From a virus, in IMG/VR virus record IMGVR_UViG_3300044612_001981, positions 16,900 to 80,899 of that record: DNA of 64,000 nucleotides, one strand, 5' to 3'. This document shows, piece by piece, positions 15,283 to 52,927 of this stretch; the stretch's first letter is position 1, and each line of letters starts with the position of its first letter. Made by a program: the position numbers and the translations under genes. The notes beneath the pieces are model-generated. The model saw nothing but the letters and a program-made list of their open reading frames with translations, was not told the origin of the DNA and made no database searches.

Positions 15283-15731
15283 TATACTTCTTCCAGTGCT
15301 ATAGATACATCCCAAAATACTTGTTTCCCGCTTGCTGGACCATCTGTTATATTTCTTCTAACCATGGTTGATGAAAATGATGTAAATGCGGCAAGGAATG
15401 TCTCTGATCTTGTATCATTGTATGCAATTTTTACATTAAATGTTCCCTGTCCTTTAGCGCTTAAATAAAAAGCCTTTAGGTTTTCCGCCCCCCAGTATCC
15501 ATCTACCGTCATGGTGGTGTATGAAGGAAGCATGCTCCAGGAGGTGGACACTATCTTCTTGTCGGCTATAAAGAGCTTTCTAAGGCTTCCATTGGCCATT
15601 CTAGCGGTCTTCTCAAACCTTTCGGTATCGACTGATATTGGAGACCTATTATGCTCACTTAGGGCATGGAAGACTCCAGCATCGTCTTGTAAAAACAGTG
15701 CTGCTCCTACTGGCAAAACTAAAGATGGCAT
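15282..15731 (-). CDS. Distal tail (Dit-like) or minor tail protein
   Basis: 149 residues immediately after the tape measure gene, where siphoviruses encode Dit. It is beta-rich, with RFEKTARMANGSLRKLF and KKIVSTSWSMLPS in the middle and a C-terminal strand DVSIALEEV. Length is short for a full Dit and fits only its N-terminal tube-like domain. It would cap the tube and join it to the hub. Overlaps the hub ATG (TAATG). Confidence 0.65.
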   Translation of the reverse strand: MPSLVLPVGAALFLQDDAGVFHALSEHNRSPISVDTERFEKTARMANGSLRKLFIADKKIVSTSWSMLPSYTTMTVDGYWGAENLKAFYLSAKGQGTFNVKIAYNDTRSETFLAAFTSFSSTMVRRNITDGPASGKQVFWDVSIALEEV

Positions 15732-24700: not shown

Positions 24701-26605
24701 TGCGCTCATAGCACTTGCTTTTAATCTATCAAATGAAGCTGCTAAAGTAAGTACTGCATCTGAGAATGTAGCGGCCGCCTTAGTATCGCTATAGAATGAC
24801 TGCTCTACAGTTTTAGCAGCAGCAGATGCTGCCATTAATTCTGGTGTTAATAATTTAAATCCAGTTCCGCCCTTACCAATATTTTTAAGAGCTAATACTC
24901 CCTTAATTATGTATCCAAAGAAGTTTGCAAGCACACCAGTAAGCATGATGATAGGACCAGCAATTGCTGTAAGCCCGCCAATAAATCCTAGTACTGCTTT
25001 AATTGGTGCTGGTAGATTCCCAATAAACTTTAAAATGCCATCAATAGCATTTAATACAAATGCACCAATTTTTAAGAACTGATCTCCAACTACAGCCAGT
25101 TCTGCCTTAACAGATTCGAGTGCTCTTCTGTATTTACCAGATGCAGACTCTGTAAGCGCTGTTAATTCTCGTGCTGAAATTGCAGCTAAGTCTTGTGTAC
25201 TTGCTTTCATCAAGTCTAAGACTTGAAGAGTCTGGCTTCCTTCTTTACCTAAGTTTTCGAATAAAGCATTTATTCTAGCAAACTGGAACTTTCCAAATAG
25301 CTGCTCAATTGCTCTTGCTCTTTGTAATGGCTCAAGGGAATCTAATGAATCCTTTAATGCCATTATTGTGCCAGTTAAATTTCCAGCATTTTTATTTACA
25401 ATGCCAGATAAGTCTATACCAAACCCCATGAACATTTCTTTTGCAACCTTTGTGGGGTTGATAACAGATGCTAAAGCAGACTTTAATGCGTTAGCACCTT
25501 CTGATGCATTAATTCCACCTTCACGCATAGCAGTTAAATAAAGTGCAAGGTCTTGTACATCTCCGCCCAAAGCCTGAACAACTGGTCCTGCTTTTGGAAT
25601 AGCAGTTACTAAGTCATCTAGAGTAGTAGACGTCTGGTTTTCAACTGCGTTCAAGAAGTCAATAGACTCAGCAAGCTCCATCGTATTTTGACCGAAGGCT
25701 GTCTGAATTGCAAGTGTGGCCTTCATGGCTTCTTGTCTATCTACTTCACCAAGAATTGCAAGTCTAGTTGTTTGTCTTGTAGAGTCTATAAGATCTGCGC
25801 CTTGTTTTCCAGTTGCAGCAATATCTGCTGCTAAAGCGATAGTCTCTGTAAAGTTTGCTCCTAGTCCAGAAGCTAATTCTCTAGAAACTGCCATAACATC
25901 TTTGCGAACTTGAAGAAGATCAGCGCTTGATGTTGCAGTTAATCCTCCGTAAACTTTTGTTAAGCGAGTTAATTCTTGATCTGCTTCTTTAAATGCTTTT
26001 GCTGCAGCCATACCAAATGCTGCTAAAGGAACTGTAAGACCAACTGTTAGCTGTCTACCAGCCCACTGTGTATTCTTACCCCAGTTAATTAGCTGATTAG
26101 ATCCATCCATCATAACCTTATTCATGATGGCTAGCTCTTGTCTTAGAAGCGCTGACTTATTCTTTGTAACGTCTAGTCCAGATTGAACCATTACGTTGTA
26201 TTGCATTAATCCTTGTGCATTTTTACCAATAGGCTGAATTATTGCATTCTCAAGCATAACCTGCTGCTTGGCTAAATCTCTAACTAGTGAGCTAGTCTTT
26301 TGTGTATGACCTTGCCAAGTTCTAAAGTATTGGCCAAGCTTCATTCTTCCGCTATCTAGGTTTTGACCAAACTTAGATACGTCTGAAGTTAATGTTACAA
26401 AGTGTCTAGAGAACTGACCAGTGGAGCGCATGGTTTCGTCAAACTGACGATTCATGACTCCAACCTGGCTAGTCAGATTCTTATTTAAACCAATTGTTGT
26501 AGCTTGGAGCTTTAAGAGTTGCTGAGTAACCGCTTGTAACTGCGCTGTTAGGCTAGAAAAATTAGCCGTCGCAGTTATGTTGGTTACTATATTTTGATCT
26601 GCCAA
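15731..26605 (-). CDS. Giant tape measure protein with embedded enzyme-like domains
   Basis: 3624 residues. It sets tail length and is ejected at infection. Residues ~200-450 hold the TP901-type core (AIQTAFGQNTMELAESIDFL, MREGGINASEGANALKSAL). Hydrophobic segments lie near 530-580 and 2090-2190, the second rich in Gly/Ala zippers (GGMAAGGAIGNAVGGQNG). Motifs such as YLVGEKGPEIFSP and YLSNGEYVIKEKAV recur, as in other tape measures. Near 1355-1600 is a kinase-like segment and near 3370-3470 an ADP-ribosyltransferase-like segment (see findings). Start is TTG with GGAG upstream, just after the chaperone stop. At roughly 0.15 nm per residue the tail would be around 0.5 micrometre, if the whole chain counts. 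Confidence 0.95.
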   Translation of the reverse strand: MADQNIVTNITATANFSSLTAQLQAVTQQLLKLQATTIGLNKNLTSQVGVMNRQFDETMRSTGQFSRHFVTLTSDVSKFGQNLDSGRMKLGQYFRTWQGHTQKTSSLVRDLAKQQVMLENAIIQPIGKNAQGLMQYNVMVQSGLDVTKNKSALLRQELAIMNKVMMDGSNQLINWGKNTQWAGRQLTVGLTVPLAAFGMAAAKAFKEADQELTRLTKVYGGLTATSSADLLQVRKDVMAVSRELASGLGANFTETIALAADIAATGKQGADLIDSTRQTTRLAILGEVDRQEAMKATLAIQTAFGQNTMELAESIDFLNAVENQTSTTLDDLVTAIPKAGPVVQALGGDVQDLALYLTAMREGGINASEGANALKSALASVINPTKVAKEMFMGFGIDLSGIVNKNAGNLTGTIMALKDSLDSLEPLQRARAIEQLFGKFQFARINALFENLGKEGSQTLQVLDLMKASTQDLAAISARELTALTESASGKYRRALESVKAELAVVGDQFLKIGAFVLNAIDGILKFIGNLPAPIKAVLGFIGGLTAIAGPIIMLTGVLANFFGYIIKGVLALKNIGKGGTGFKLLTPELMAASAAAKTVEQSFYSDTKAAATFSDAVLTLAASFDRLKASAMSATVATSNGISTVGGSTVLAGGGRIVDKDNPLVGRPYSRDMSHVIPTGSKTPQQRADETIFSTVPGPKPVNLRLSNSPQTYMHEDLPRIHGVTAVNGVSNGIVASEAAKWHSMTAAIAMQSKAELAILKTEVAATGTITASLADSYQALLPQMTRITTLAADETALIVQQLQAGKITVEAARAKIFALNAQVEAMMVQTAQGVAAAQARTISLTTVPLTSQPVVSATGKSNMKELFHKTETAKMVDAIARGLGVRTSGAGYSIHTTKPRFNTGGKIESFGPNKTQVTGPASITYDDRMGDVPLGGYVLNQSASMDPRNAPLVAAAPSTYDNSGSNITALLTPKETVFGPGIQDNPELFRAVDAANNGVPLPQHAAGGKIKLSRSSYGLPALTIKSLFKNKISEYRKRVAELAEQKNKTRIDPRGRDTQIIGSYGGRTWVTRGASTNAAIDDYMRSLPPSERRKAAKVIEEFSASIETTKRAAERGAPRGRDAFAIEAGHLEANKGALAKKLAENELPPLDLNKIIHATHLTRAVVINGKRYVSKYTVDYDAQSNLQANQGTLLAKDFLDRNMGRTGKYDRLMRKSGVPQEKWADTEKEIDQKIKAILRGKESKKIGDEKGDITFDSFIPLIDSSIVSAGGSAAKLKELQRNVVERKNSGGIVGGKVKPGKFNYGRLFLGMPRSIKQVEKQRQARLTMEEIDAGVRAGKYSTMPPTNFGKLDTPTTGHSFPVEGIGGVYIKPDGSKVFVKPVMDEDAALSQQRATMIVRGGHEMHSPTQEIRTMIDPTDPAGRRKLIVLESPYDKAFATQSGVFDEKAYFKQLVAANLRGDKDLSRDNISGRNVNDTGTDGVYDRASGKRRFHGEWKDGEWIDKMPSMQEMARINLLGVKGGAKRFFAEATLNIPKGMTPQQYHQKMIDEIDEVLPKLKETIAKFGDLNPTEAAVYAAMIKRLEEGRRVNWEEFHGIHSAVKVSPPKALTPAALKKLKDEAELRIRQRGHAISLSDNSFKTPLNGFNGGGIINVLKSLAMRRIGAGFGPTGAPKPSMYESAPWGVSSLSIKAAETLFASTGLRPYSQKLLYDKFAAALAKEKPYGYVKGPDGSLRNALEPSSLDAVIRKAASDLISDRSAFKQLSPIDRDILKRRYLNWDSKKDTPITAELKKKIFGIDGEREMGGPVSPGQSYLVGEKGPEIFSPLQSGNIIPQFALGGLIKRSKDFYGEKITDVSQITSKEHAKRLLKSGDPSQRAMGQLYLNNLAASRTPMPVVGTPPKPGPLSVGTTTVIGNGGVRTNVPTIQGSLPYVPSVPLQRANQAIDSAIGSIASRLKISSDKLVVRARMMGSEINSSMMALTGSIQKLGTSIKTTSTAASTSIASTVRRFTSTYSPGGSQILAYGVPGSLAAGVGQSYGPAAFGEDSGVSKAKRAGTAFSTNAKYTTAAMMHPLQFLKSKGMGADPDRPFGSGAGGMLVGTIGGMAAGGAIGNAVGGQNGMMMGSMVGSMAGPAIMQGAGKIVTSMAGKAVAAGAVKAGLAATAAGVAGIVAPLAAVAAAGYAAYKMWGHYKRGQELNIQSFGLTAEAAKKAGLRFTDFGSKIKDTIQDSEDLAAANKLVYESMKDGGTPFQMTIAEYKKLKKEVKETFAEQIAVLDRQPSEKVPDAVRRIKEQLIAAGMSADEATKKVFTMLQLSNKKDQSITATIGNAKFKNITDPQSAAVSAVTSFGADTRDQGSKEKAASLNTALMATETGINDLIAKRERLVAKDLTGKTKSLTYAEAEKIMLDKINRSKESGTAITQATVDEMAKTNPEVRKMINGSDTVVSVWQKIRLQAQGFNGDLSQLNAAQTKLIADAFAAISDAVIAKNKVGILKDQYTALGKLDEQIKKYTKSLKGQSVAEQISDRDRLKALNKQIDAINKLAEARKKALAQQQADADIGRQIEKTRLEMQNAMAVGDTEKAQSLRIDLESLTSQQQTEAQMNAIDKAAEAATKPLKAAADAIANKQEKLGDAAAIAAESLDKLKDKYSKQEAAIKKVNDSMTALYGNAAAAGLSVKDYMKKNKEAAAGFVAAMEAATGAAMPRYKERTYYNGSQLVTEKVPVAPWENALEALAKAGAGAGVNEALADSIKGGKNGKTLKDVVDAVKGINGKPALRENIKVTGDYSDSKETKEYDGKKVQVLNAEARDAIRKRLDLQPGETFIVDGQRYKQNTTGGTPIWMGPAPKTPALAAGGHIRGAGTGTSDSIPAYLSNGEYVIKEKAVRKYGVETFDALNAEKFADGGPVRRGIRQQLPFFPWRPDLPNYWSDGKPTGSPYTGRWGELRYNPSSGRDIWGGTEIPGLKFTGKTPQQSDYWHQMQEQPGKSRGPGMGIDKDPMRLAGSGASMGGIGNGAYGFGPLMFHAGGPVGHRHGRNAPPTDKRSNLSKTWDFLKEAVKETGRSADWLYAMYQSGQGSRNPFFLSQNNRAKFQQIQDLKNAGLDAEAKKALLINHGLSSLNVGSLFLGGAVGSAAVRGAVGAYGINRLGVVGLETLLPTGSLTYGTKALTGVAANVAATSSKSILESRIASTVRPKVAASADEIVPPTRETAPFPRTKEVQDAIDEAKKWNTFRENEFKAIEEANPDYLQLHKLLVAIDEETHALKMAGGRYWNETRGPIYKSVHETPGSPDKQLFDKHSKNDDFWKYHQQKYKNEIELDRISRAEKYNITPSEVLALREFLEMPLTGHLDYRKSGIEQLVSRFTIPEGTVSYRGLSDIDMEALSKIGIGESFVAPTVRSITDNKIAAAAIGAFGGTGGGRSGAIARIIFGPNVKGISDIGVLGEAQGLSHEGLIGPNTRFILEQIIRGGAQSSRYENQAGVHMMNIVPGQGKIITETLDEYVLRAVKMKLGGLVNVPKFESGINVVPQDMLAMIHKNESIIPASMNPFNPEAAMPRYNFDRPSFGIRGEGSSGASYTVNQNIYASEGMDVEALSNMIVKKAEVVIGQKAKVNVKMVGQGKNI

Positions 26606-38897: not shown

Positions 38898-39548
38898 TTA
38901 CTTAATATATACATGTGAAGGACTCATGTATCTTGTGCCAGAAATAATTGGCTTTACCTCATGGAGATATGGAAGTTGTGAAGGAAACATTATTAGGCTT
39001 CCAGATTTTGGCTTTATTGTAATATTTTGATTAGGAAAATGTATTTCTCCGCCTTCATAATCATCGTTTATATAGGCAACAAGAGAGAATGCAAGCGAGG
39101 AGTCACCATCTTGACCATCAAAATGTGGTCCCATAGATTGTCCTTGGTTCCATTTTTTAATTGGCACACGACTTAACTCTAAATTATATTTGTCTTTGTC
39201 TAATCCATGTCCAGATAAATATTTATCTGTACACATTTCAAAGGCCATTAAAAAGCTATTAGCAATATAAAGAGTTTTTTTATCTGTTGAGTCTGAACCA
39301 GTAGCTTCTTTTAATTTATTTGGGAATATGTTTTTTGTAGCCCCGTAAATCAATGACTCATCATTACTGGCATTCCAATTTTCCCACTTAGAAATCCTAT
39401 TGTATGAAAGAGGGTCTGAGTCTATCTCTTCAATAAATTCCTTTAGGTGCTCTGGAAAGCTAAGAGCATTTTCCCAGTACCATATTTGAGGATCTAATAC
39501 CTTCAGATCAAACATTATAAACTGCTTAAAGATTGGCTCTGATTGCAT
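38898..39548 (-). CDS. 2OG-Fe(II) oxygenase-like protein 1
   Basis: 216 residues with the double-stranded beta-helix fold of prolyl-4-hydroxylase-type enzymes. Iron ligands His142 and Asp144 (PHFDGQDGD) and His196 (YLHEVKP); Arg206 (SGTRYMSP) would bind 2-oxoglutarate. AYINDDYEGGEIHFP and IKPKSGSLIMFPS are the typical strands between them. Substrate unknown. Downstream end of an oxygenase operon that starts at 43216. AGGGA site upstream. A second ATG 11 codons in could also serve. Confidence 0.87.
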   Translation of the reverse strand: MQSEPIFKQFIMFDLKVLDPQIWYWENALSFPEHLKEFIEEIDSDPLSYNRISKWENWNASNDESLIYGATKNIFPNKLKEATGSDSTDKKTLYIANSFLMAFEMCTDKYLSGHGLDKDKYNLELSRVPIKKWNQGQSMGPHFDGQDGDSSLAFSLVAYINDDYEGGEIHFPNQNITIKPKSGSLIMFPSQLPYLHEVKPIISGTRYMSPSHVYIK

Positions 39549-39549
39549 T

Positions 39550-40302
39550 TTATCCCTCTACTTCTGATGCTGGATACACTTCTCCACGTGGAGTTATTCT
39601 TAATCCCTTATTTCGATAATCTTCCCACTCAATAGCTTCATCTGCTTGTATGGCTCTAACCTGCCTAAGCTCTTCAGCCCATGCATCTCTTACTTCTTGT
39701 GGGTAATCTTCTTCTTCTCTATCATCCCAAAATGATCCAAGAGTGTAGCGTATTGATTTTTTAACTGTGGTGACTTCGTGCATATTATGGAAGCCTCCAG
39801 CAAATGTAACAAGTGTGCCAGTTTTGGGAACAATAGTTAATCCATGCTTGAAGTTTAACACTCCATCTTCAAAGTCATCATTCAGATAAAGAAATGTTGC
39901 GTATCTACTTCTGGTAAATGCACCAGCTACACCATCATTTGAAGTGTTATCTGAGTGCATATTGGCAAAAGCTCCTGGGGCCCATCTTTGTGAATGCCAG
40001 CTTATTTGAGACATTTGTTCTGGGTTTTTACCAGCCATATCTGCTGTTGCATCAATAACTCTTTGTCTTAATACTTGAAAAAAATCTCCTGGAAGTCCAC
40101 AATCAATTGTGTCTGGATCATTTACTTCTGGCATTCCAGACGAATATGATTCATAGAAAGAAATAGGCATCCACTTTAATTGCTCTTTTTCCATTTTAAT
40201 AGCAAGCACTTTAATTACTGATTGACATTCTTCTGGTGTCAAAAAGTTTTCATAAGTTACAATATCTGGCTGGTGCTTAGTTATAATCATGCTTCTTTCC
40301 AT
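39550..40302 (-). CDS. 2OG-Fe(II) oxygenase-like protein 2
   Basis: 250 residues. His116 and Asp118 (ANMHSDNTSNDG), His175 (FHNMHEV) and Arg185 (KKSIRYTLG) provide iron and 2-oxoglutarate sites; LYLNDDFEDGVLNF and TGTLVTFAGG are core strands. The longer region ahead of the HxD motif (~110 residues) and the tail after it (ending GEVYPASEVEG) differ from its neighbours and may set substrate choice. Substrate unknown. An ATG four codons in is an equally possible start. Confidence 0.88.
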   Translation of the reverse strand: MERSMIITKHQPDIVTYENFLTPEECQSVIKVLAIKMEKEQLKWMPISFYESYSSGMPEVNDPDTIDCGLPGDFFQVLRQRVIDATADMAGKNPEQMSQISWHSQRWAPGAFANMHSDNTSNDGVAGAFTRSRYATFLYLNDDFEDGVLNFKHGLTIVPKTGTLVTFAGGFHNMHEVTTVKKSIRYTLGSFWDDREEEDYPQEVRDAWAEELRQVRAIQADEAIEWEDYRNKGLRITPRGEVYPASEVEG

Positions 40303-40305
40303 GTT

Positions 40306-41121
40306 TTATTTTACTCCTGTGTCTTCTGGGGCGTACTCTTCATATGGAACTATTAATCCATCTTTAAAGTAGATCATGTTTCTCTTATCTTCATAATCTA
40401 TTCTTTCTGATTCCATTTTAGCCCATCGATATGCTCCAAATTTTCTTTGATTTGCAAGCCACTCTTCTGTGCCATTATGTGGTGTCATTATAAAGTTTCT
40501 AACAAAAAACTTTTCGTTAGTATTAATTGTTTTTACACCATGAAAATAAGGCTCTGTTGATGGGAAAACTAGAATGTCTCCAGCTTTTGGCTTATGATTA
40601 ATAAGATCACCATTAATATAAAATTCAATATCGCCGCCATCATAGTCATCATTAATATACATTGTACATGTAAGGAAAAATTTATCTCCAGGCATATCTC
40701 TTTGTGAGGTTATATGGTCTGTATGATATTGCATTGTCATGTTATTTTGCAATGAATCTATCTTTGCGTTGTATTTAGAATAGGAACATCCGCTAAATCT
40801 CCAGCCTTCTGGAAGCACTATTCCGTGTCTTTCAACATAATCTAATAAAACCTTATTATATGCCTCTTCAACTTCTTCTACAAATTTTTTTTCTTTCAAA
40901 AACATTTCTTCCTTTTGAATATCTAAAGAAACTTGGCTCATATCCTTTTTTTGTGAATAAGTTCCAAAATGAGCCCAAGGGTCCCAATTAGTTAAAAAAT
41001 ATTTGCCCTCTGAAGTTTTTTCTGATTCATTCATTATTGAATACATCTCAGATGGATTTTTTAAAACATTTCTATATACATCAACTTTTGGGTAAAGCTC
41101 TACATACTCTAAGTTATTCAT
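40306..41121 (-). CDS. 2OG-Fe(II) oxygenase-like protein 3
   Basis: 271 residues. H-x-D in QYHTDHITSQ, distal His in PYFHGVKTI, and core strands MYINDDYDGGDIEFY and HKPKAGDILVFPS. After the distal His the expected Arg/Lys lies in NEKFFVRNFIM, less canonical than in relatives. Start at 41121 chosen because the ATG overlaps the stop of the preceding oxygenase (ATGA) and AGGAG is upstream; an ATG at 41157 lies within that gene. Substrate unknown. Confidence 0.86.
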   Translation of the reverse strand: MNNLEYVELYPKVDVYRNVLKNPSEMYSIMNESEKTSEGKYFLTNWDPWAHFGTYSQKKDMSQVSLDIQKEEMFLKEKKFVEEVEEAYNKVLLDYVERHGIVLPEGWRFSGCSYSKYNAKIDSLQNNMTMQYHTDHITSQRDMPGDKFFLTCTMYINDDYDGGDIEFYINGDLINHKPKAGDILVFPSTEPYFHGVKTINTNEKFFVRNFIMTPHNGTEEWLANQRKFGAYRWAKMESERIDYEDKRNMIYFKDGLIVPYEEYAPEDTGVK

Positions 41122-41792
41122 GGCTGTCTCTCTCCTGTGTGTTTGTTTATTGTCCAAAAAAATGGTGAAGTAAATCTATTGCCAGATTTAACTGGTCTAA
41201 CTCCATGCGTATAGTTCATGTCGCCTGGGAAAAAATATGCTGCTCCAGCAACTGGCTGGAATTCAATTCCATGTTGTGGGAAGTATAACTCGCCGCCTTC
41301 ATAGTCGTCGTTAAAATAAAAAAGACCAGCTAGATCATACCAAGGAAAGTCATTTGGCCTTCCTTTTTCTGGTCCAGAATGAAATTCTTTATCGGCATGA
41401 GGCTCTTGTCTTGCTCCTACTGGCCACCTAACAATTGCTGGTCCTGTTTCTTTTGCATCTACCTCAAAAAATTTATCTACTTCTATTTTTAATCTAGCTA
41501 TCATGCTATAAATTAACTCAAGTATCGAAGGGTCTGATGCCATTAAAGAATTATATGTGCAAACTCTGTCTTCCCAGACTTTGTGGTCATACAAAACTAG
41601 CCCATCTTCATCTACATGAGTTTCTGTTATGTCCCAAATTTTATTATTTAATGCAAAGTCCATAAGCCTAGTACGTTCTTCTATAGATAAAAAGTCTTTA
41701 ATTTCTACAATATTGCTTGATGAGTTACCAAAAAATCCAGATGGTGTTATGGACTTAGGTGCATTTCCGTTCCAGCTATTTGCCATTTTCAT
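41118..41792 (-). CDS. 2OG-Fe(II) oxygenase-like protein 4
   Basis: 224 residues. HAD motif in QEPHADKEFHSG, distal His in NYTHGVRPV and Arg in SGNRFTSP; strands FYFNDDYEGGELYFP and FQPVAGAAYFFPG. All key residues present. The ATG at 41792 has GGAG six bases upstream; another in-frame ATG lies at 41804 and a third at 41786. It overlaps the end of the DUF6065-like gene. Substrate unknown. Confidence 0.87.
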   Translation of the reverse strand: MKMANSWNGNAPKSITPSGFFGNSSSNIVEIKDFLSIEERTRLMDFALNNKIWDITETHVDEDGLVLYDHKVWEDRVCTYNSLMASDPSILELIYSMIARLKIEVDKFFEVDAKETGPAIVRWPVGARQEPHADKEFHSGPEKGRPNDFPWYDLAGLFYFNDDYEGGELYFPQHGIEFQPVAGAAYFFPGDMNYTHGVRPVKSGNRFTSPFFWTINKHTGERQP

Positions 41793-42510
41793 TTTTATCT
41801 CCATGATTCATTATATCATTATTTACCTTAAGCCTTATTGCTTTTACTTGATGAGAGCCAATTTTTCTCTTTAAATGATCTACGGCGTCCCTATAAAAAT
41901 TAGACCATATCGCTTGTCTATTTAATTCGTATATTACATTAGAATACTCGTTTGGGTCAAATGATGGACTTTGCAAAGAGCCTACCGACTCAAAGTTTAT
42001 TTCAGAGTTTTGTAAGTCTTCTAGGTTAATTGGTAATATTGCAATTACTGGTGTTCCTGCTTTTATTGTTATTACTTCATTTGGTTTAGTTACCATCCAT
42101 GCACATGGTAATTCTCCTCTAAAAAAAGATGTACTAATTAAAGTTGTAAATGGAACAGCACCATCAATAAATAAATTAGGAACTGGCATGGACAATAAGC
42201 TAGAGTTTTTTTCTGTAGAAAACATTAGTCCTGTATTAAAACTAACAGTACCATTGGCTCTTCCAGAATATGCGTACTTTTCACCAGATAATATTTTTAC
42301 GTGATCTGGTGAGCTATCTGATACTCCATCCCATATAAAAGAAATGTCTTCTGGAAAAGATATACCCCAGCCCATTTGGTTTGTTAGACCAACTGGGAAA
42401 CACTTATATGCATGAGCTTCCCAAGTATTGTCCATCCAATCTCTTTTAATCGAAAGTGGATTAACTTCACCAAAACCCTCTCTTATAACATAAGCCTTAA
42501 TTTTATGCAT
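41776..42510 (-). CDS. DUF6065-like protein
   Basis: 244 residues. The pattern KRDWMDNTWEAHAYKCFPVGL, NQMGWGISFPEDISFIWDG, SFNTGLMFST and GTPVIAILPINL matches what is known of DUF6065 proteins, which have no assigned function. It is the only non-oxygenase in this five-oxygenase operon and overlaps both neighbours, so it probably works on the same substrate. The fold appears beta-rich, with no obvious H-x-D motif. Confidence 0.72.
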   Translation of the reverse strand: MHKIKAYVIREGFGEVNPLSIKRDWMDNTWEAHAYKCFPVGLTNQMGWGISFPEDISFIWDGVSDSSPDHVKILSGEKYAYSGRANGTVSFNTGLMFSTEKNSSLLSMPVPNLFIDGAVPFTTLISTSFFRGELPCAWMVTKPNEVITIKAGTPVIAILPINLEDLQNSEINFESVGSLQSPSFDPNEYSNVIYELNRQAIWSNFYRDAVDHLKRKIGSHQVKAIRLKVNNDIMNHGDKNENGK

Positions 42511-43216
42511 TTTGATTTTTACCAGTTTTGGCGTCTTCTTCTACCCATTTGGCTCTCATTTGCATAAACTCTTGTCTATGAGCATGATCATTGTAGTCTA
42601 ACATTGTTACTATAGAAAATTTCATTCCAGATTCAACTGGCATTGCTCTATGTGAAAATAAATATGTAGATGGGAATATATATAGGTCACCAGCTTTTGG
42701 CTTAATATCTAGGTTTAACTTAGGAAAATAAAGATTTCCACCTTCATAGTCATCATTGACATATGCTACAAGAGATACAGTAGCACTATAAGAAAATCCA
42801 TGGTCAGCATGCTCTTGAAAATGTTGTCCCTTACCGTATCTAATGCAATTCATAACTTCCCAGTAATTCATTTTTACATTATACATTCCGCAATAATCAT
42901 CTACAGCTGGAGACTGATATTGCTTTAAGTCTGACCATAATTCTGAAACAAGCTTCTCTGTATTGGAATGAGGGTAAAGAATTTCACCTACCTTAATATC
43001 TTCACAATCTCTATAGGAGGGCCTTTTTTCACTATACCCTACAAATCCAAAAGTCCAAGCATATCTTGAATCTCCATCATTAACTGCAGACTGACCAATT
43101 GCATCTAAACGGTTAATAACGTCAATTTCTTTTTTAATTACATCTCTATAAACCCAGACTCCTGGTGCAAGCTGCTCTTTTGAAGAAAAAGAATAATTGT
43201 TGTTTAAATTTGTCAT
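42503..43216 (-). CDS. 2OG-Fe(II) oxygenase-like protein 5, first of operon
   Basis: 237 residues. HAD motif in QEHADHGFSYS, distal His in YLFSHRAMPV, core strands AYVNDDYEGGNLYFP and IKPKAGDLYIFPS. The position of the 2-oxoglutarate-binding Arg is taken by Lys in SGMKFSIV, a known variation in the family. No ribosome binding site; TACAAT lies six bases upstream of the ATG, so the oxygenase operon probably begins with a leaderless transcript. Substrate unknown. Confidence 0.87.
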   Translation of the reverse strand: MTNLNNNYSFSSKEQLAPGVWVYRDVIKKEIDVINRLDAIGQSAVNDGDSRYAWTFGFVGYSEKRPSYRDCEDIKVGEILYPHSNTEKLVSELWSDLKQYQSPAVDDYCGMYNVKMNYWEVMNCIRYGKGQHFQEHADHGFSYSATVSLVAYVNDDYEGGNLYFPKLNLDIKPKAGDLYIFPSTYLFSHRAMPVESGMKFSIVTMLDYNDHAHRQEFMQMRAKWVEEDAKTGKNQNA

Positions 43217-43287: not shown

Positions 43288-44178
43288 TTAGTAGAACCTG
43301 AGTCCGAAAGCGCCACCAAATGCTGGTGGGGAAAAGAACCCTGGTGGGGCAAAGAATCCTGGTGGTGAGAAGAATCCTGGTGGTGCGAAGAATCCTGGTG
43401 GTGAGAAGAATCCTGGTGGGAAAAACGGCGGTGCGAAGAAGCTTGGTGGGAAGAACGGTGGGAAGAACGGTGGTGCGAAGAACACTGGTGGGAAGAACGG
43501 TGGGAAAAACGGTGGTGCGAAGAAGCTTGGTGGGAAGAACGGTGGGAAGAACGGTGGCGAAAAGAAGCTTGGTGCAAGAGTAGTAACTGTGTTAGAGTTA
43601 CTAGATGCAACTGATCTTCCATTAGCATTATCTGCATATACGTTGTAATACTGAGATGTTCCAGCAGTATCTGCAATTGATACAGATAGTCCAGTTGAAT
43701 TTCCAGTTGTTCCGTCATTACCAGCAATATAATAGTTGGTAATTGCAGTTCCACCATTTGATGGAGCTGCCCAGCTTACTGTGTTAGCATTTACTCCAGC
43801 TGTTGCAGAAACGCTTGTTGGAGCGGCTGGAACAGTTGTTGCAGTTGCTGAGGCTGAGTTTGAATCTGCAGAAGTATTAAAAGAGTCTACTGCTTTTACG
43901 GTATATGAATAAGATGTTCCACCAGCTAATCCAGTATCAGAATATGTAACAGTTGGAGCATTTACTGTTGCTATCTCTGTTCCATTTCTGAATACCTTAT
44001 ACTGAGTTGGAGTGTTACCTGCAGCGGGAGCTGTCCATGCAAGGTTAATCATACCATTGTTAAATGGTCTTTGATTATTAACACCATTTAAATGATTTGT
44101 TGCTGTAAGGCCTGTTGGTGCATTTGGGCCAATGAAGTTGTCTTGAGCTGATGCTCTTCTACCTATATTTTTTGACAT
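43288..44178 (-). CDS. Fibre with fibronectin-III domains and Phe/Pro tandem repeats
   Basis: 296 residues. Two fibronectin-III-like domains occupy ~20-115 (NLAWTAPAAGNTPTQYKVF, YSDTGLAGGTSYSYTVKA) and ~118-200 (SVSWAAPSNGG-type strand, YYNVYADNANGRSVASS). The last ~90 residues are tandem units of FFPP and FFAPP, then GFFSPPGFFAPP units, ending GAFGLRFY. Such an aromatic, proline-rich tail is unusual and is shared with the 823-residue fibre. GGAG site upstream. Other open frames here are by-products of the repeat. Confidence 0.82.
   Translation of the reverse strand: MSKNIGRRASAQDNFIGPNAPTGLTATNHLNGVNNQRPFNNGMINLAWTAPAAGNTPTQYKVFRNGTEIATVNAPTVTYSDTGLAGGTSYSYTVKAVDSFNTSADSNSASATATTVPAAPTSVSATAGVNANTVSWAAPSNGGTAITNYYIAGNDGTTGNSTGLSVSIADTAGTSQYYNVYADNANGRSVASSNSNTVTTLAPSFFSPPFFPPFFPPSFFAPPFFPPFFPPVFFAPPFFPPFFPPSFFAPPFFPPGFFSPPGFFAPPGFFSPPGFFAPPGFFSPPAFGGAFGLRFY
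43300..43577 (-). repeat. Tandem repeat encoding FFPP/FFAPP/GFFSPP units
   Basis: Units of 12 and 15-18 bases based on TTCTTCCCACC and TTCTTCGCACCACC (minus strand). Near-identical at DNA level, so prone to expansion or contraction. Confidence 0.85.
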
Positions 44179-44198: not shown

Positions 44199-47189
44199 TT
44201 ATGCTTTCAAGTCTCCAGCAAGTAACCATGTATCTGTTGCTACCTTGGTTATTGTTGCTGATGAATGTAAGGCTCTTAGCTTTAGTCCTGGAGTTCTTAA
44301 TATTGTAACTCCAGCTGCTTCTGCAAATACTGCGTCTGCTCCAGCTGATTGGTAGAAGCTTATTGAAGTTCCTACTGGATAAGCTGTAGTTGCATTTGCA
44401 GGAACTGTAATTGTGTGTGCTCCAGAAACTGGAATTAACTGATCTCTTAGACCTAACCCACCTGTTGATAGATTGTATGCTCCAGCAATTGCTGTTCCAA
44501 TTACAGTCCGTGAAGGAACTCCTTCTCTTGTCTGTGTTCCGTCTGTAAATGCTATTCCAGATGCTGCAACCGTTACTGTTCCAGTAAATGTTGGTGCGTT
44601 AAGTGGAGCAAATCCTGAAATGCTTGCGCCTGCTGGTATTGTGACTGTTCCTGTAAATGTTGGTGAATCTGTTGGTGCTATTACAGAATAATTTGTTCCA
44701 TCATTTGTAAATTCCCACTTATCAGTAGATTCGTTCCAACGTAGTTGAACAGCGTTAGAATCTCCACGAACAATTCTTATTCCTGAGTTCTCTGTTGGAG
44801 ATCCAGTAGTAAAATTGCTGTTTAGGTCAATAATGTTATCGGCCAAAGAAATTGTTTCTGTGTTAACGCTTGTAGTTGTTCCGCTTACTGTTAGGTTTCC
44901 ACCAACAACAAGGTTTCCATTTACTTCTGCATTATCATTAAGATAAACTTTTCCTGTACCGTTTCCAGATAGTGATAGGTCTGTGTTTAATGTTTTGCTT
45001 GCTATTAAGTCAGACTTGATGCCGTTGCTAAATGCAATTCCATTTCCGTCTGCGCTTGAGAAGTTTGCTCCCGCTTCAACAACTAGAGGTCCCTTGATAT
45101 TAACAGAACCAGTTCCTGTTGGATCTAGTTCTATGTTACCGCTTCCGCTTGTTCTTAGTCCAAGATTTTCATCAACATCAGCAGAAACAACGATTGCTCC
45201 TGATTCATCTTGAAGAACCTTCTGGCCATTAACATAAAGTGATCCTGGACCTACGTAGATATCTTTCCACATCTTTGTAGGAGAACCTAGGTCGTATGTG
45301 TTGTCTGTAGAAGGAATAACACTTCCACCTGCAGTAACTGCTGGAAGAACTACTGTTCCTGTAAATGTTGGATCTGCAAGAGGTGCCTTTAGAGCAAGAG
45401 CATCTGTTGCAGTTGTTCCAATTGCATCTGCATAAGACTTTGTTGCAAGAAGTGATGTGTCTGCAATTCCATGAACATCTGTAGTATCTGCACTGTGTGT
45501 TGAAAGAGCGGTAGCTGCTGACCCAAACTGTGTTTGAATGCTAGATGTAACACCATTCAAATAAGATATTTCTGTAGCATCAACATCTCCTATTGTTGTT
45601 GAAGAAGGCAAAACTACTAATCCTGTAAATGTTGGGCCTTCTTTAGTAGCAAGTAAATCTAGATCTTCTGCAAGTCCTGCTATCTTAGATTGTGCAATTT
45701 CAGCTGTAGGACTAATTTTTGCATTAGTAATAGAATCATCTGAAATTTTATCGACTGTTATTGCTTGGCTTGATACCTTGGCTGTAACTATAGATCCGTC
45801 TTCAATTTTATCTGAATTTACAGATCCGTCTGCAATCTTAGCTGTAGTAACAGCTTCATCTGCAATCTTATTAGTGCTTACAGAAAGATTTGCAATTTTA
45901 TTTTCTGTTACGGCAGAATCTTCAATTTTGGCTGTAGTTACAGAGTTATTTGCAATCTTAGCTGTATTTACAGCATTAGCTGCAATTTTGTTGTTAGTTA
46001 CAGCGGAGTCTGCAATCTTATTTTCACTTACAGCAGAATCTGCGATTTTGTTTGTTGATACAGAATCATTAGCGATTTTAGCAGATGTAACTGCATCTGG
46101 TGCAATCTTTGCTGTTGTTATAGATTCAGCAATTATTTTATCAGTTGATACTGATGAGTCTGCAAGTTTAACTGTAGTAACAGATGCATCTGGGACTACA
46201 TTAAGCTTTGTATCGATTTGAGCTTGAATGTTTGATGTAACATCAGAAAGCATCTGAATTTGCTGTGGGCTAACTGCTCCTATTTGAGCTCCGCTAGCAA
46301 ATATTTGACCAACTTCAAGTGGTGCTCTGGTGTATGTAGTAAAGTCTACTGTTGTGGTAGGCTCAGCAACTACTCCTGAGAAAAGCTTCCAAATTCCGTC
46401 TGAAGCATCACGGACAAGACCAGTATGCTGATATGTTCCATTATTAAATGCTCCTACAACACCAACATCAAGTACGTTTGATTGATTGCCATCACCAATA
46501 TAAATCATTGGGTCATCATATGAAACATTTGTTGAGTTAACAGTAGTTGATGTTCCACTAACAGTTAAATTACCGTTAATATTTACATCGTTTGCTGTTA
46601 AAAGATTTTCTGCAACTAAATTTACTCCTGTTATAGTGTCTCCAGAAATATTTGCAGTTGTGTGAATAGCAGAAGTAAAGTTATTTAATGCAATTTGTGC
46701 TACTGGAATTTTAGTATTTGCATCAAGTGAGGCAACTCCATTTTGAGCTCCTCTATCTGAAACTGGAATATAATCTTCCAAGGAGTTATTTACTCCACTA
46801 ATTGCTGCATCTGTATAATCTTCTGCTGCTGCAATTGCTGCTGCCTGTGCCGCTGCAGACTTTGTATTTGCCTCTGATGTAGCAAATGTTTTTGTTGAAA
46901 TAACATCTGTATCTACAGTTATTGTAATTGTATTGGTGCCATCGTTGTATGTCTTTGTAAGACCTGCACCCATTGAAAGAGCTTGATCTATGGCATCTTG
47001 TGATATTTCGCCAATTGCTGCTGTATCAGCAGCGGCGTATGAAAGGGCTGTCCATGTAGAAGAGCCATTTCCAAATTTAAATTTATTAGTGTTTGTTTCA
47101 ACACCCATTTCACCTGCAGCCAATACTGGATTTGCTGCGGTCCATTCTGAAGCTAAACCTCTACGTACTTGAATTCTTACTGTTGACAT
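44199..47189 (-). CDS. Long tail fibre with Mtd-like N-terminus and KI-repeat shaft
   Basis: 996 residues. N-terminus IQVRRGLASEWTAANPVLA then GEMGVETNTNKFKFG matches the N-terminal domain shared by phage fibres and tropism proteins. Residues ~340-500 are about fifteen 10-residue repeats of the type SVTTAKIADS, an expected beta-helical trimeric shaft. Further on are SPTFTGTVTIPAG repeats and a GNLVVGGNLTVSG module also present in the 323-residue fibre. C-terminal ~100 residues form a globular tip. GGGGTGG site upstream. Likely receptor-binding fibre. Confidence 0.82.
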   Translation of the reverse strand: MSTVRIQVRRGLASEWTAANPVLAAGEMGVETNTNKFKFGNGSSTWTALSYAAADTAAIGEISQDAIDQALSMGAGLTKTYNDGTNTITITVDTDVISTKTFATSEANTKSAAAQAAAIAAAEDYTDAAISGVNNSLEDYIPVSDRGAQNGVASLDANTKIPVAQIALNNFTSAIHTTANISGDTITGVNLVAENLLTANDVNINGNLTVSGTSTTVNSTNVSYDDPMIYIGDGNQSNVLDVGVVGAFNNGTYQHTGLVRDASDGIWKLFSGVVAEPTTTVDFTTYTRAPLEVGQIFASGAQIGAVSPQQIQMLSDVTSNIQAQIDTKLNVVPDASVTTVKLADSSVSTDKIIAESITTAKIAPDAVTSAKIANDSVSTNKIADSAVSENKIADSAVTNNKIAANAVNTAKIANNSVTTAKIEDSAVTENKIANLSVSTNKIADEAVTTAKIADGSVNSDKIEDGSIVTAKVSSQAITVDKISDDSITNAKISPTAEIAQSKIAGLAEDLDLLATKEGPTFTGLVVLPSSTTIGDVDATEISYLNGVTSSIQTQFGSAATALSTHSADTTDVHGIADTSLLATKSYADAIGTTATDALALKAPLADPTFTGTVVLPAVTAGGSVIPSTDNTYDLGSPTKMWKDIYVGPGSLYVNGQKVLQDESGAIVVSADVDENLGLRTSGSGNIELDPTGTGSVNIKGPLVVEAGANFSSADGNGIAFSNGIKSDLIASKTLNTDLSLSGNGTGKVYLNDNAEVNGNLVVGGNLTVSGTTTSVNTETISLADNIIDLNSNFTTGSPTENSGIRIVRGDSNAVQLRWNESTDKWEFTNDGTNYSVIAPTDSPTFTGTVTIPAGASISGFAPLNAPTFTGTVTVAASGIAFTDGTQTREGVPSRTVIGTAIAGAYNLSTGGLGLRDQLIPVSGAHTITVPANATTAYPVGTSISFYQSAGADAVFAEAAGVTILRTPGLKLRALHSSATITKVATDTWLLAGDLKA
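45700..46190 (-). repeat. KI-repeat shaft coding region
   Basis: About fifteen 30-base degenerate repeats encoding S-V/A-x-T/E-x-K-I-A-D/N units. Protein-level repeat with silent drift between copies. Confidence 0.75.
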
Positions 47190-47682: not shown

Positions 47683-49089
47683 TTATTTAAGAAGTGTTCC
47701 AGTTACTTTGATTGTTGAATCGTTTACTGGATCTACTCTTAGCTGAACATTTGCACCAGATACTGATGCTGTAATTGTGCCTCTTGCCCCATTAGTTCCA
47801 ACGATTGCATACTCTGTAATTGCTACGTTGTCTGATGAATCTAGAGTTACTAGAATTTCTGATATTTCATTGTGTGTTCCGTTGTCAATCTTAACAACAA
47901 ACTTTCCTGAGCGGTAAGCCGCCTTTGGCCACTCGTATGCAGTTACAACAACTGATCCAAGTGATGTTGATGATGCTGCAATTTGCTTAGCCTCATCATT
48001 AATGTTTAATGCTGTGAATGCTGTAGTTCCATCTTGCTGTGCTGTGTTAGCTGCTGCTGCTGTTGCCTCTGCTGCTGCTTGAGCGGCGTTAGCCTTAGAT
48101 GTAGCATCTGCTGCTGCTGTGGCTTCTGCTGCAGACTGTGCTGCGTTAGCCTTAGATGTAGCATCTGCTGCTGCTGTTGCCTCTGCTGCTGCTTGAGCGG
48201 CGTTAGCCTTAGATGTAGCATCTGCTGCTGCTGTGGCTTCTGCTGCAGACTGTGCTGCGTTAGCCTTAGATGTAGCATCTGCTGATGCATTTGAAGCGGC
48301 AGTTGCAAGACTTGCAGTTACATCTGCTGAATTAGCCTTTGTTGCTAATGCTGATGTAAGAGTTGTTGTGTAATTAGCGTCGTCATTTATTGCTGCTGCC
48401 AATTCATTTAATGTGTTAAGAAGAGCTGGTGCTCCATCTACTAATGAATCTACTGCATTTGAAATTGCTGTATTACGGTTTGAAACCTCTGTTGATATTG
48501 CAGATGAAAGAGCTGATGCTGCAGTTGCTTCTGCTGCTGCTTGGGCTGCGTTAGCCTTTGTACTAGCATCGGTTGCTGCTGCAGAGATTGCTGCAGACTG
48601 TGCTGCGTTTGCCTTGCTTGTTGCATCTGCTGATGCAGTAGCTTCTGCTGCTGCTTGGGCTGCGTTAGCCTTTGAAGTTGCATCTGCTGCGGCAGTTGAA
48701 ACTGAAGCTGCATCTCCTGATACTCTAAGTGCTGCTTCTGCGGCTACCTTAGTTGTTGCATCAGTTGCTGCTGCTGTAATTGCAGCTGATTGTGCATTTG
48801 AAGCTTTTGTGCTTGCATCAGTTGCTGCTGCAGAGATTGCTGCTGCTTCAGCTGCTGAAGCGGAACCGTATGAGTCAAATGTATTAGCATTTACTGTAAG
48901 GTTACCTGAACCATCTACAGAAAATACTCCTGTATCTACTGACTTTACAAGTGTAGCTCCACCAACGAGGTTGAGAATATAGGAATCTCCACCTGTTTCT
49001 GTAAGTATATTTTGGCCACCGATTGTACCTGTGTTACCTTCTACAATGAGGCCTGATTTAATTCTAAAGTTTTTTACTACTGTTGCCAT
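47683..49089 (-). CDS. Alanine-rich coiled-coil tail fibre
   Basis: 468 residues. Short N-terminal attachment module (MATVVKNFRIKSGLIVEG), then ~290 residues of Ala/Asp/Ser/Thr/Lys repeats built on ADATSKANAAQAAAEAT (19-residue period), predicted as a long trimeric helix bundle. A non-repeat insert (LVDGAPALLNTLNELAAAI) and a C-terminal beta domain (SGKFVVKIDNGTHNEISEI to VKVTGTLLK-type end) follow. AGGAG site upstream. Function likely shaft of a side fibre. Confidence 0.8.
   Translation of the reverse strand: MATVVKNFRIKSGLIVEGNTGTIGGQNILTETGGDSYILNLVGGATLVKSVDTGVFSVDGSGNLTVNANTFDSYGSASAAEAAAISAAATDASTKASNAQSAAITAAATDATTKVAAEAALRVSGDAASVSTAAADATSKANAAQAAAEATASADATSKANAAQSAAISAAATDASTKANAAQAAAEATAASALSSAISTEVSNRNTAISNAVDSLVDGAPALLNTLNELAAAINDDANYTTTLTSALATKANSADVTASLATAASNASADATSKANAAQSAAEATAAADATSKANAAQAAAEATAAADATSKANAAQSAAEATAAADATSKANAAQAAAEATAAAANTAQQDGTTAFTALNINDEAKQIAASSTSLGSVVVTAYEWPKAAYRSGKFVVKIDNGTHNEISEILVTLDSSDNVAITEYAIVGTNGARGTITASVSGANVQLRVDPVNDSTIKVTGTLLK
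48045..48290 (-). repeat. Tandem 114-bp repeat in the coiled-coil fibre
   Basis: Two nearly identical adjacent 114-base copies, each two 57-base subunits coding for 19 residues (ADATSKANAAQ(A/S)AAEATAA). Related but diverged copies continue to about 48850. Confidence 0.8.
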
Positions 49090-50455: not shown

Positions 50456-52927
50456 TTAACATCCTGATCCTGCAAAGTTTTGTGCACCGCTACATGTTGC
50501 TCCAGAACCACATCCACTATTATCGCAACCACCACTGCTACAAATAGCCATTGATATATTTGCAGATGTACAAAGTCTACCAGAAGATGGTGCTGGAACA
50601 AAAGCTGGTGGTGCAAAGAAGCTGGGTGGCGCAAAGAAGTTAGGTGGCGCAAAGAAGCTAGGTGGGAAGAACGGTGGCGCAAAGAAGTTAGGTGGCGCAA
50701 AGAAGCTAGGTGGCGCAAAGAAGCTAGGTGGGAAGAACGGTGGCGCAAATGTGACGTTGCAGCCTTGTGGTGTTGTATACACTCCACCGCTTAGTGTAAC
50801 AAATGCTTCGTTTGCAGAACATTTTGCACTTAGTCCAGTAACTGCCTCTGATGAAGAAGTATAGCTTCCACTTACTCCTCCTCCATCACTACAACATCCA
50901 TAATAAGTTATTGCTTGCGCTGGCGGAGTACAAGATTGAGTTTGTGTTTCTGTGTATGCTGTACAAGATGACCCTTGATAGTTTGTTCTTGTTCTAGTTT
51001 GAGAACCCTGAGCAGAGCATGTGCTCCATGCACTCCATGCACCTGGTGCAGGACATGAAATTAAATCACCGCAGCATTGCTGTCCAACACTTATTGCATA
51101 AGTTGTAGAGTTGCCAAGAAGTGTTCTTCCTAGTTCAGCACAAGTATATGCTGCTGCATTTGTTATGGTTCCTGGGCATGCTGGTTTTTCTGTTACTGGT
51201 GGGAAAGCTGGCGGAGCTTGATAAGTAAACTTATAGACAGTGATTGTAGGTATAGGAGAAGCATTTACAACTGTTCCAGCGGCTGGAGATTGTGAAGACA
51301 CTTGCCCCTCTTTAGTATAGTCAGTTGTACTGACTGATGTTCCTACGGAAATATTGTAACTTGATGTGCTAGAAGGATTATATGTTCCAACTAAGTTTGG
51401 AATTGTATAATTTGTAGGAACACATACTGGGGTTCTAGATACTCCTCCTTGAACCTGATTATTAATTCCTGGCTCTGCTTCAGCACATGCTGCATTTAAT
51501 CCTGTAAGAGCTGCAGAGCTATTTGCATATGTTCCAGATACTCCGTCTCCATTGTTGCAGCATGCCCAATATTGAACTGGTGAAGTAGGCTCTTCTGCTT
51601 CCTTTGTTGTAGATGCAACTGAGTTACTGCTATATGTTTTTGAGGTAGTATTTAAATCGGTGGTCAATACATAAACAGAAGATGTTATTGACTTGTTGTC
51701 ATATTGTGTTGTATCGCCTAGATTTAAGCTGCTTCCAATTCCAAACGGTATATTGGAGCCATCCGCATACCATTCATGTATATATGAATATATTGAATCT
51801 GAGTTACTCCATGTTCCGTTTGTTGATGTAAATGATCTTCCAGTTCCAGAAACTGTTGGTGCAACTTGATTTACTGGTAAAGGAACTGATGGATAAGTAA
51901 TAGAAAGTGGAGGGAAAGAACTCCATGAAGTATCTGTAAATCTTGGAGCTGTTCCAGTAACTGTAATTGTAAATGAACCAAATGTAGTTCCGCCTACACC
52001 AATTCTATCAATTTCATAAGATGTTGCTGATGCACCAAGACCTGATAGATAAGAGCTTGTATAAAGCTCTCCGTTATTATAAATAATCCACTCTGTAGGC
52101 TGAATTAAATTTAATGACCAACTAAATGTTCCGCCACTTGATTTTGAAACAAGGCTTGATGTTACTGCAGGCTTATTTGGCTTTACATCAGAGACTGATG
52201 CATTAGCACCAATACCTTGAACTGTAGTTCCGCTAATATTAGATGTATTTAGTGGTCTTACTAATAACAAAAGTCCGCCGCTTCCATTTCCAGTATCTAT
52301 CTCATATGTATTTACATCTCCAGCAAGCTGTATTTCTCCAGAAGCGGCACCTGAATATTGTATATAAAAATCATTTGCTCCAATTGGCTTTGTCCAATCT
52401 ACTTTTATTACTCCATTTGATACTACAGATGCAGATACAACAGAAAGTTTTTGTGGACCTATTAACGGGCTCGGTAAAGTATAAACATCTGGATCATTAT
52501 CTCCAGCAGCATTTGTAGCTGTTACCTTGCACCTTACAACATACCCAACATACTTTAAAGTTCTAGTAGAATTCCATTCGTCTTCATCTAATTGAAGTGT
52601 ATTTGATGTCTTGCCTGTAATGTTTGACCAATTATATGAAGACCCAGTCCATGCTGCTTTTTGCCATTGATATTTAAATGAAGTTGGAGAATTTTCCCAG
52701 ACACCGTTTGAAACAGAAACAGTTTCTTGTGCTGCATACCAGAAAGCTCCTCCTTGTAATGAAAGTATAGGAAGCTCTGTGTTTTTTGGCTTTAAGTCAA
52801 GTAGGGATTTCCATTCAGACCCATCCCATATATATGCCGCTTTAGATTCATTCCATGTGCTTCCATCATGAATCTGTACTTTTTTTAAAGGATTCCAACT
52901 GGAACCGTCAAAAATATTTAGCGGCAT
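50456..52927 (-). CDS. Multidomain adhesin-like fibre (PASTA, TSP1-like, Cys modules, Phe/Pro repeat)
   Basis: 823 residues. Residues 1-45 repeat W-DGS-W motifs seen at fibre N-termini. Fibronectin/Ig-like sandwiches fill ~50-440. A Cys module (~452-504) is followed by a PASTA-like domain (~506-564, YTIPNLVGTYNPSSTSSYNI, later SSQSPAAGTVV), a thrombospondin-1-like repeat (~626-667, GAWSAWSTCSAQGSQTRTR), a second Cys module (~674-722), an FFPP/FFAPP repeat (~726-780) and a Cys-rich end. It is a strong candidate for host cell-wall binding. GGAG site upstream. Confidence 0.85.
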   Translation of the reverse strand: MPLNIFDGSSWNPLKKVQIHDGSTWNESKAAYIWDGSEWKSLLDLKPKNTELPILSLQGGAFWYAAQETVSVSNGVWENSPTSFKYQWQKAAWTGSSYNWSNITGKTSNTLQLDEDEWNSTRTLKYVGYVVRCKVTATNAAGDNDPDVYTLPSPLIGPQKLSVVSASVVSNGVIKVDWTKPIGANDFYIQYSGAASGEIQLAGDVNTYEIDTGNGSGGLLLLVRPLNTSNISGTTVQGIGANASVSDVKPNKPAVTSSLVSKSSGGTFSWSLNLIQPTEWIIYNNGELYTSSYLSGLGASATSYEIDRIGVGGTTFGSFTITVTGTAPRFTDTSWSSFPPLSITYPSVPLPVNQVAPTVSGTGRSFTSTNGTWSNSDSIYSYIHEWYADGSNIPFGIGSSLNLGDTTQYDNKSITSSVYVLTTDLNTTSKTYSSNSVASTTKEAEEPTSPVQYWACCNNGDGVSGTYANSSAALTGLNAACAEAEPGINNQVQGGVSRTPVCVPTNYTIPNLVGTYNPSSTSSYNISVGTSVSTTDYTKEGQVSSQSPAAGTVVNASPIPTITVYKFTYQAPPAFPPVTEKPACPGTITNAAAYTCAELGRTLLGNSTTYAISVGQQCCGDLISCPAPGAWSAWSTCSAQGSQTRTRTNYQGSSCTAYTETQTQSCTPPAQAITYYGCCSDGGGVSGSYTSSSEAVTGLSAKCSANEAFVTLSGGVYTTPQGCNVTFAPPFFPPSFFAPPSFFAPPNFFAPPFFPPSFFAPPNFFAPPSFFAPPAFVPAPSSGRLCTSANISMAICSSGGCDNSGCGSGATCSGAQNFAGSGC
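50590..50752 (-). repeat. Tandem repeat encoding FFAPP/FFPP units in second fibre
   Basis: Units of 12-18 bases encoding SFFAPP, NFFAPP and FFPP. Nearly identical copies in DNA and related to the repeat at 43300-43577. Confidence 0.85.

Follow-up and report, generated by a model that had tools for sequence, protein, structure and literature searches.

Virus-encoded prolyl 4-hydroxylases (P4Hs) have a precedent in Paramecium bursaria chlorella virus 1 (PBCV-1), where, by the citing account, a virus-encoded P4H likewise goes with virus-encoded proline-rich repeats and has proline-rich peptides as substrates (Eriksson et al. 1999, as cited in PMC9301287). A cellular counterpart is the algal P4H (PDB 3gze, with (Ser-Pro)5), which binds an extended proline-repeat peptide, and the collagen-like GXY stalks of phage tails are also proline-rich repeated stalks in structural proteins. 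The 2-oxoglutarate (2OG)-Fe(II) oxygenases of aquatic phages in PHROG 61 have been described as similar to human EGLN3, in an account whose available text names no substrate or proline-rich partner (PMC12774648), and a Baltic Sea virus study terms the viral use of P4Hs cryptic (PMC9301287). Here we describe a phage locus in a 64,000-nucleotide stretch of virus record IMGVR_UViG_3300044612_001981 (bases 16900-80899 of the 80,899-base record; hereafter the window), where the gene at 43288-44178(-) encodes a protein with a C-terminal array of Phe-Phe-Pro-Pro (FFPP) and related units and the next gene downstream, at 42503-43216(-), encodes a predicted P4H-like 2OG-Fe(II) oxygenase. We propose that the array may be the stalk of a fibre-slot protein, proline-hydroxylated by the neighbouring enzyme and presenting variable end modules, a reading to which we give a rough probability of 0.47 on the basis of sequence comparisons and structure models.

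The PBCV-1 repeats are not known to contain paired Phe, and that virus infects a eukaryotic alga, whereas the window enzyme gene adjoins a phage fibre-slot gene; the structure of the PBCV-1 enzyme (5c5t) ranks with the top matches to the fold of the window enzyme. The algal P4H also has a fold like that of the window enzyme, but it is cellular and its substrate, repeats of cell-wall type, lacks aromatic pairs. The PHROG 61 oxygenases belong to the same broad superfamily as the window enzyme and are abundant in aquatic phages. Unlike GXY stalks, FFPP arrays do not have glycine at every third residue and so would not be expected to form a collagen triple helix. Finally, bacterial intein-like (BIL)/Hint domains have a profile match to the C-terminal module of many relatives of the array protein and are absent from the window protein. 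The array gene and its neighbour comprise the following features:

43288-44178 (-): array protein of 296 amino acids, two fibronectin-III (fn3) domains followed by the aromatic-proline array (Pfam, PHROG tail families, AlphaFold)
43324-43566 (-): FFPP/GFFAPP array, residues 205-285, with 32 Phe (F) and 32 Pro (P) (translation)
43288-43323 (-): C-terminal end AFGGAFGLRFY and stop codon (translation; relatives similar)
42503-43216 (-): P4H-like 2OG-Fe(II) oxygenase, encoded directly after the array gene (PF13640, PDB, fold)

Residues 205-285 read FFSPPFFPPFFPPSFFAPP...GFFSPP and consist of FFPP, FFAPP and GFFSPP units. An earlier note on this DNA had reported an F/P-rich tandem repeat of about 90 residues at the C-terminus of this protein; the repeat is real, and its core is closer to 81 residues, with 16 FF..P motifs, against an average of 1.7 and at most 6 in 2000 shuffles of the same protein. 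Tandem Repeats Finder called the underlying DNA repeats at 43319-43574. The window has one more such array, of FFAPP type, in the open reading frame (ORF) 50456-52927(-), and these two array proteins are the richest in Pro-Pro (PP) pairs among the window ORFs (16 and 13 vs at most 7 elsewhere). The fn3 part is identified by PF00041 (E = 1.4e-8, residues 44-104, 35 bits vs a cut-off of 25), is modelled by AlphaFold as beta-sandwich strands with a predicted local distance difference test score (pLDDT) above 90, and matches PHROG tail families. The array itself had no match in Pfam, PHROGs or PDB, which agrees with the earlier view that no named domain covers it. A collagen-like repeat was considered and rejected: the array ORFs contain no (G..)x4 run and no glycine periodicity, and F and P make up 89% of array residues. 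The short ends of relatives resemble AFGGAFGLRFY, for example FGGGGLRFY and FGSRFIRAY.

The array evolves as a protein sequence. In 50 pairs of equal-length arrays (75-98.5% DNA identity) we counted 1041 synonymous and 225 nonsynonymous codon differences, a ratio that is rough in size, since the pairs are non-independent, but clear in direction, whereas random single-base changes in the same codons would give a nonsynonymous to synonymous ratio (N/S) of ~3.5. These counts point to strong purifying selection on the array reading frame, and a chance or wrong-frame repeat was rejected on this ground. Array length nevertheless turns over in frame between near-identical phages, as the earlier note had suggested it could: one pair of loci (L112/L037) is identical over the 450 nt ahead of the array, yet has 143 vs 98 array residues, and another (L005/L006) is 99.8% identical with 85 vs 67. 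Repeat collapse in short-read assembly may distort some lengths, and contig ends may explain some of the other differences in the comparison. An invariant repeat number and loss of the frame in relatives were both looked for; relatives differ in repeat number, and they maintain the reading frame.

The enzyme gene, which begins ~75 bases downstream of the array gene, was overlooked in the earlier note, and its presence points to a modified array, not merely a sticky tail. Its product matches PF13640 (E = 7e-14, 53 bits vs a cut-off of 27), and its best PDB sequence matches are the Bacillus anthracis P4H. All 52 sequences compared keep the catalytic residues H136 and D138 (HxD 136-138), H189 and K199, with the Lys 10 residues past the distal His in what we take to be the P4H arrangement. 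An AlphaFold model (mean pLDDT 89) gave Foldseek matches to 2jig, 6yw3, 4iw3, 5c5t and others at template-modelling (TM) scores of ~0.5-0.6. Nearly all of the 50 fold matches listed are prolyl hydroxylases, and they include PHD2, the Pseudomonas putida P4H, the PBCV-1 viral P4H and the algal P4H with the (Ser-Pro)5 peptide. On motifs and modelled fold together, we conclude that this is a predicted P4H-like enzyme.

The two genes are linked well beyond the window. Of the distinct fn3-array genes, 62 have 2 kb or more of downstream sequence; a same-strand 2OG oxygenase lies downstream within 1 kb of 56 of these and within 2 kb of 60, and 51 of 76 loci found by DNA pattern alone have one within 1 kb. 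In the reverse direction, an automatic rule found an array gene at most 1.5 kb upstream of 54 of 62 enzyme relatives. When the other eight were read by eye, seven proved to have an array which the rule had missed for being Tyr-rich (YFPP-rich), contracted or 1.8 kb distant, and for the eighth the sequence ends too soon upstream, which brings the count to 61/62. The array of locus L262 is contracted to ~14 residues. PF13640 was found in all 50 array-bearing virus records chosen, with 337 matches in 2.87 Mb and a median of 7 copies, against none of 50 random virus records and 2 of 27 random records >22 kb (one borderline match each). Three loci represent a diverged lineage with arrays on PASTA-like rather than fn3 proteins (L089, from a marine metagenome-assembled genome (MAG), L142 and L176). 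Their contigs also encode 2OG oxygenases at a greater distance downstream, the most similar of which are 36-39% identical to the window enzyme; DUF6065 also occurs in those records. Judged from these contigs, the array-enzyme pairing is not restricted to one protein architecture.

A protein search of viral contigs matched at least 600 stretches, at least 224 of which encode a relative; a DNA pattern for FFPPFFPPFF was also used to find array loci in viral contigs. The 200 arrays collected have a composition of 46% F and 42% P, often with Tyr in place of Phe, and a median length of 66 residues (maximum 179). Their grammar is loose, with unit sizes of 3, 4, 5 and 6 residues; most units are FFPP and FFP, and FFAPPx is found in the branch containing the window protein. 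In cellular genomes (257 billion bases), the FFPPFFPPFF DNA pattern occurred in 28 stretches, mostly in spurious frames. Only 5 of these were real arrays, among them three marine MAG contigs with phage-like genes (L089, L095 and L104) and one phage-like contig (L106), and a cellular origin of the array was rejected since most real arrays are on phage-like contigs. A rare non-phage case is a Marinithermofilum abyssi protein on a bacterial contig (L102 894-1208(-)) that ends in FFPPFFPPFFPIFPFFGPPFFGPFWW. In a collection of isolated phages no close relative of the array protein was found, only fn3 similarity to Listeria phages, and we found no description of FFPP repeats or arrays in the open-access literature (subscription journals were outside the scope of this search). 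The aromatic-proline array is a repeat type without a name so far.

What follows the array varies. The ends of the 200 array proteins comprise 93 short ends, 48 Cys-rich ends and 50 tails of at least 120 residues, most of them intein-like; an intein-like domain ends ~40 of the 200, and the window protein has a short end. A profile built from 21 long tails finds 2lwy, an intein-like domain of bacteria (E = 8e-9), together with a number of inteins; across these aligned tails, the Hint features Cys1 and a terminal His-Asn are present in nearly all and in about half, respectively. Hint/intein Pfam matches in relatives' tails were below the cut-off. Loci L026, L018, L043, L067 and others have an intein-like (Hint) domain after the array, some of which end in His-Asn-Lys. 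That ending might allow self-cleavage; other tails have lost it.

Around the array and enzyme genes, the window encodes a second array protein, a fibre-like protein, a DUF6065 protein and further 2OG-Fe(II) oxygenases:

50456-52927 (-): second array protein, 823 amino acids, with a Cys-rich end (translation; weak PASTA match)
50606-50737 (-): second array, FFAPP type, 44 residues with 16 F and 16 P (translation; Tandem Repeats Finder 50602-50749)
44199-47189 (-): fibre-like protein with an Mtd_N N-terminal domain, directly upstream of the array gene (PF18454, E = 5e-14; tail-fibre PHROGs)
41776-42510 (-): DUF6065 protein (PF19541), directly after the hydroxylase (E = 4.5e-28)
41118-41804 (-): second 2OG-Fe(II) oxygenase, with Arg at the 2OG position (PF13640; motif)
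40306-41157 (-): third 2OG-Fe(II) oxygenase (PF13640)
39550-40302 (-): fourth 2OG-Fe(II) oxygenase (PF13640)
38898-39548 (-): fifth 2OG-Fe(II) oxygenase (PF13640)

PF19541 was found in 39 of the 42 array-bearing records or genomes searched, and the DUF6065 protein may act in the same pathway as the hydroxylase. Other enzymes of the cluster match PHROG 61. A PF11397 glycosyltransferase (GlcNAc-transferase-like), from a family whose namesake acts on the hydroxyproline of Skp1, stands beside the hydroxylase, or between it and the array gene, in three relatives (L291:2943-3947, L302:20-1030 and L284:2773-3687), a position that is suggestive only of array glycosylation; with PF11397 in just three of 50 array records, a conserved hydroxyproline-glycosyltransferase partner was rejected. 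Some relatives have sulfotransferase-like and Asp/Asn-hydroxylase-like genes between the array gene and the hydroxylases (L297:1938-3186), hinting at a wider protein-modification cassette. Among distant relatives of the enzyme, that of cyanophage S-CAM7 has collagen-like genes with GPP repeats and a glycosyltransferase gene in its vicinity.

The window encodes a tailed phage, with a portal, a tape-measure protein, a head protease and major head proteins. The tape-measure protein (window 15731-26605(-)) is very large, at 3624 residues, and implies a long tail. Counted with a rough pattern, 103 of 154 array genes are directly preceded by a gene whose product has the same kind of C-terminus as the upstream neighbour. 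The Mtd_N fibre-like ORF 44199-47189(-) itself contains degenerate repeats of 30, 60 and 120 bases at window 45799-46109, and a tail-fibre-like ORF at 47683-49089(-) has an almost perfect 114-base tandem repeat (99% matches) at 48051-48288. WhiB, which we take to be an actinobacterial marker, was found in 18 of 42 array-bearing records, although not in the window's own record, and many array-bearing phages therefore probably infect Actinobacteria.

From gene order and the PHROG tail matches of the fn3 part, we infer that the array protein is located in the virion. It would be a small fibre-associated protein in which two fn3 domains are followed by an extended, probably polyproline-II-like array and then by a variable end module. 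The enzyme of the next gene would hydroxylate prolines in the PP pairs of the array, which would stiffen and partly hydrate a very hydrophobic chain, and in some relatives the hydroxylated prolines could be a handle for glycosylation. The modified stalk would then display the end module and may help the particle adhere to or find its host.

Several observations weigh against this proposal. In the AlphaFold model the array has a pLDDT of ~50-60 without regular secondary structure, so the model gives it no structure. Other long ORFs of the same loci also have a 2OG oxygenase in 248 of 705 cases (35%), a control which is inflated because the loci are centred on the cassette, and the array-enzyme linkage is partly shared ancestry. 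The random-record controls for PF13640 are not habitat-matched to the array-bearing records. PF13640 is missing from six of 13 array-bearing virus records chosen as exceptions, some of the six being fragments and two being 37-38 kb long; because of these six contigs, the P4H-like enzyme is not obligatory. This phage genome has 8 PF13640 matches, any or none of which could act on the array, and it lacks PF11397, which is rare among the array records as well. Distant enzyme relatives occur in 406 phage records, many of them cyanophages, and the one in Sf-FS3 comes after a large fibre gene of S74 type whose product is not rich in proline. EF-Tu is also a reported substrate of some bacterial P4Hs, according to the PDB titles 4iw3 and 5v7y among the fold matches.

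Some of these points would also be expected if the array were an unmodified hydrophobic or aromatic stalk, adhesive to hydrophobic or glycan surfaces or self-assembling as the earlier note suggested, with the adjacent oxygenases sharing a late operon and acting elsewhere. Array-bearing contigs without any PF13640, a grammar loose enough for a sticker-and-spacer chain and fast length turnover all fit such a stalk, but it does not account for the placement of 61 of 62 relatives from a single P4H-like subfamily after an array, or for the recurrence of the pairing on contigs with PASTA-like arrays, and we consider it doubtful. We think it unlikely that the enzyme modifies a host protein such as EF-Tu, or another phage protein, and owes its place beside the array gene to operon history. 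The P4H structures with EF-Tu, the several 2OG oxygenases of this phage and the 406 phage records with distant enzyme relatives, in a collection holding no close array-protein relative, are in its favour, yet the enzyme keeps its near-constant position right after the array gene across large divergence, and no other ORF of the window comes near the array proteins in PP content.

The remaining explanations concern the array itself. As a linker that mainly places a self-cleaving Hint domain or a Cys-rich end, with no surface role of its own, it would account for the ~40 intein-like (best match 2lwy, as above) and 48 Cys-rich ends among the 200 proteins, but 93 of these proteins, the window protein included, have only a short end past the array, which makes this very improbable. 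A neutral product of repeat expansion without a specific role is barely credible: clear DNA repeats, variable length and the contraction in L262 are what it predicts, whereas the excess of synonymous over nonsynonymous changes (1041 vs 225, against a neutral N/S of ~3.5), the F/P pattern shared by fn3 and PASTA-like proteins and the near-absence of arrays from cellular genomes argue against it. We retain the hydroxylated stalk as the preferred reading.

Few auxiliary genes of aquatic phages are as common as those for 2OG-Fe(II) oxygenases, and their substrate is an open question, with the viral use of P4Hs termed cryptic (PMC9301287). The conserved proline-rich gene directly upstream offers a concrete candidate substrate for a phage 2OG oxygenase. 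We tentatively suggest that the fibre of a large group of aquatic phages is modified after translation: enzymes of the same cassette (P4H, DUF6065 and further 2OG oxygenases) would hydroxylate the array and, in some of these phages, perhaps also glycosylate it. The array would then be an adhesive stalk that can be tuned, and would provide the long-puzzling phage 2OG oxygenases with a substrate. With Phe and Pro each accounting for almost half of its residues, of which there are up to 179, the array may also be of use as a biomaterial. If the proposal is true, phages prolyl-hydroxylate their own surface proteins, which would tie infection to oxygen, iron and 2-oxoglutarate.
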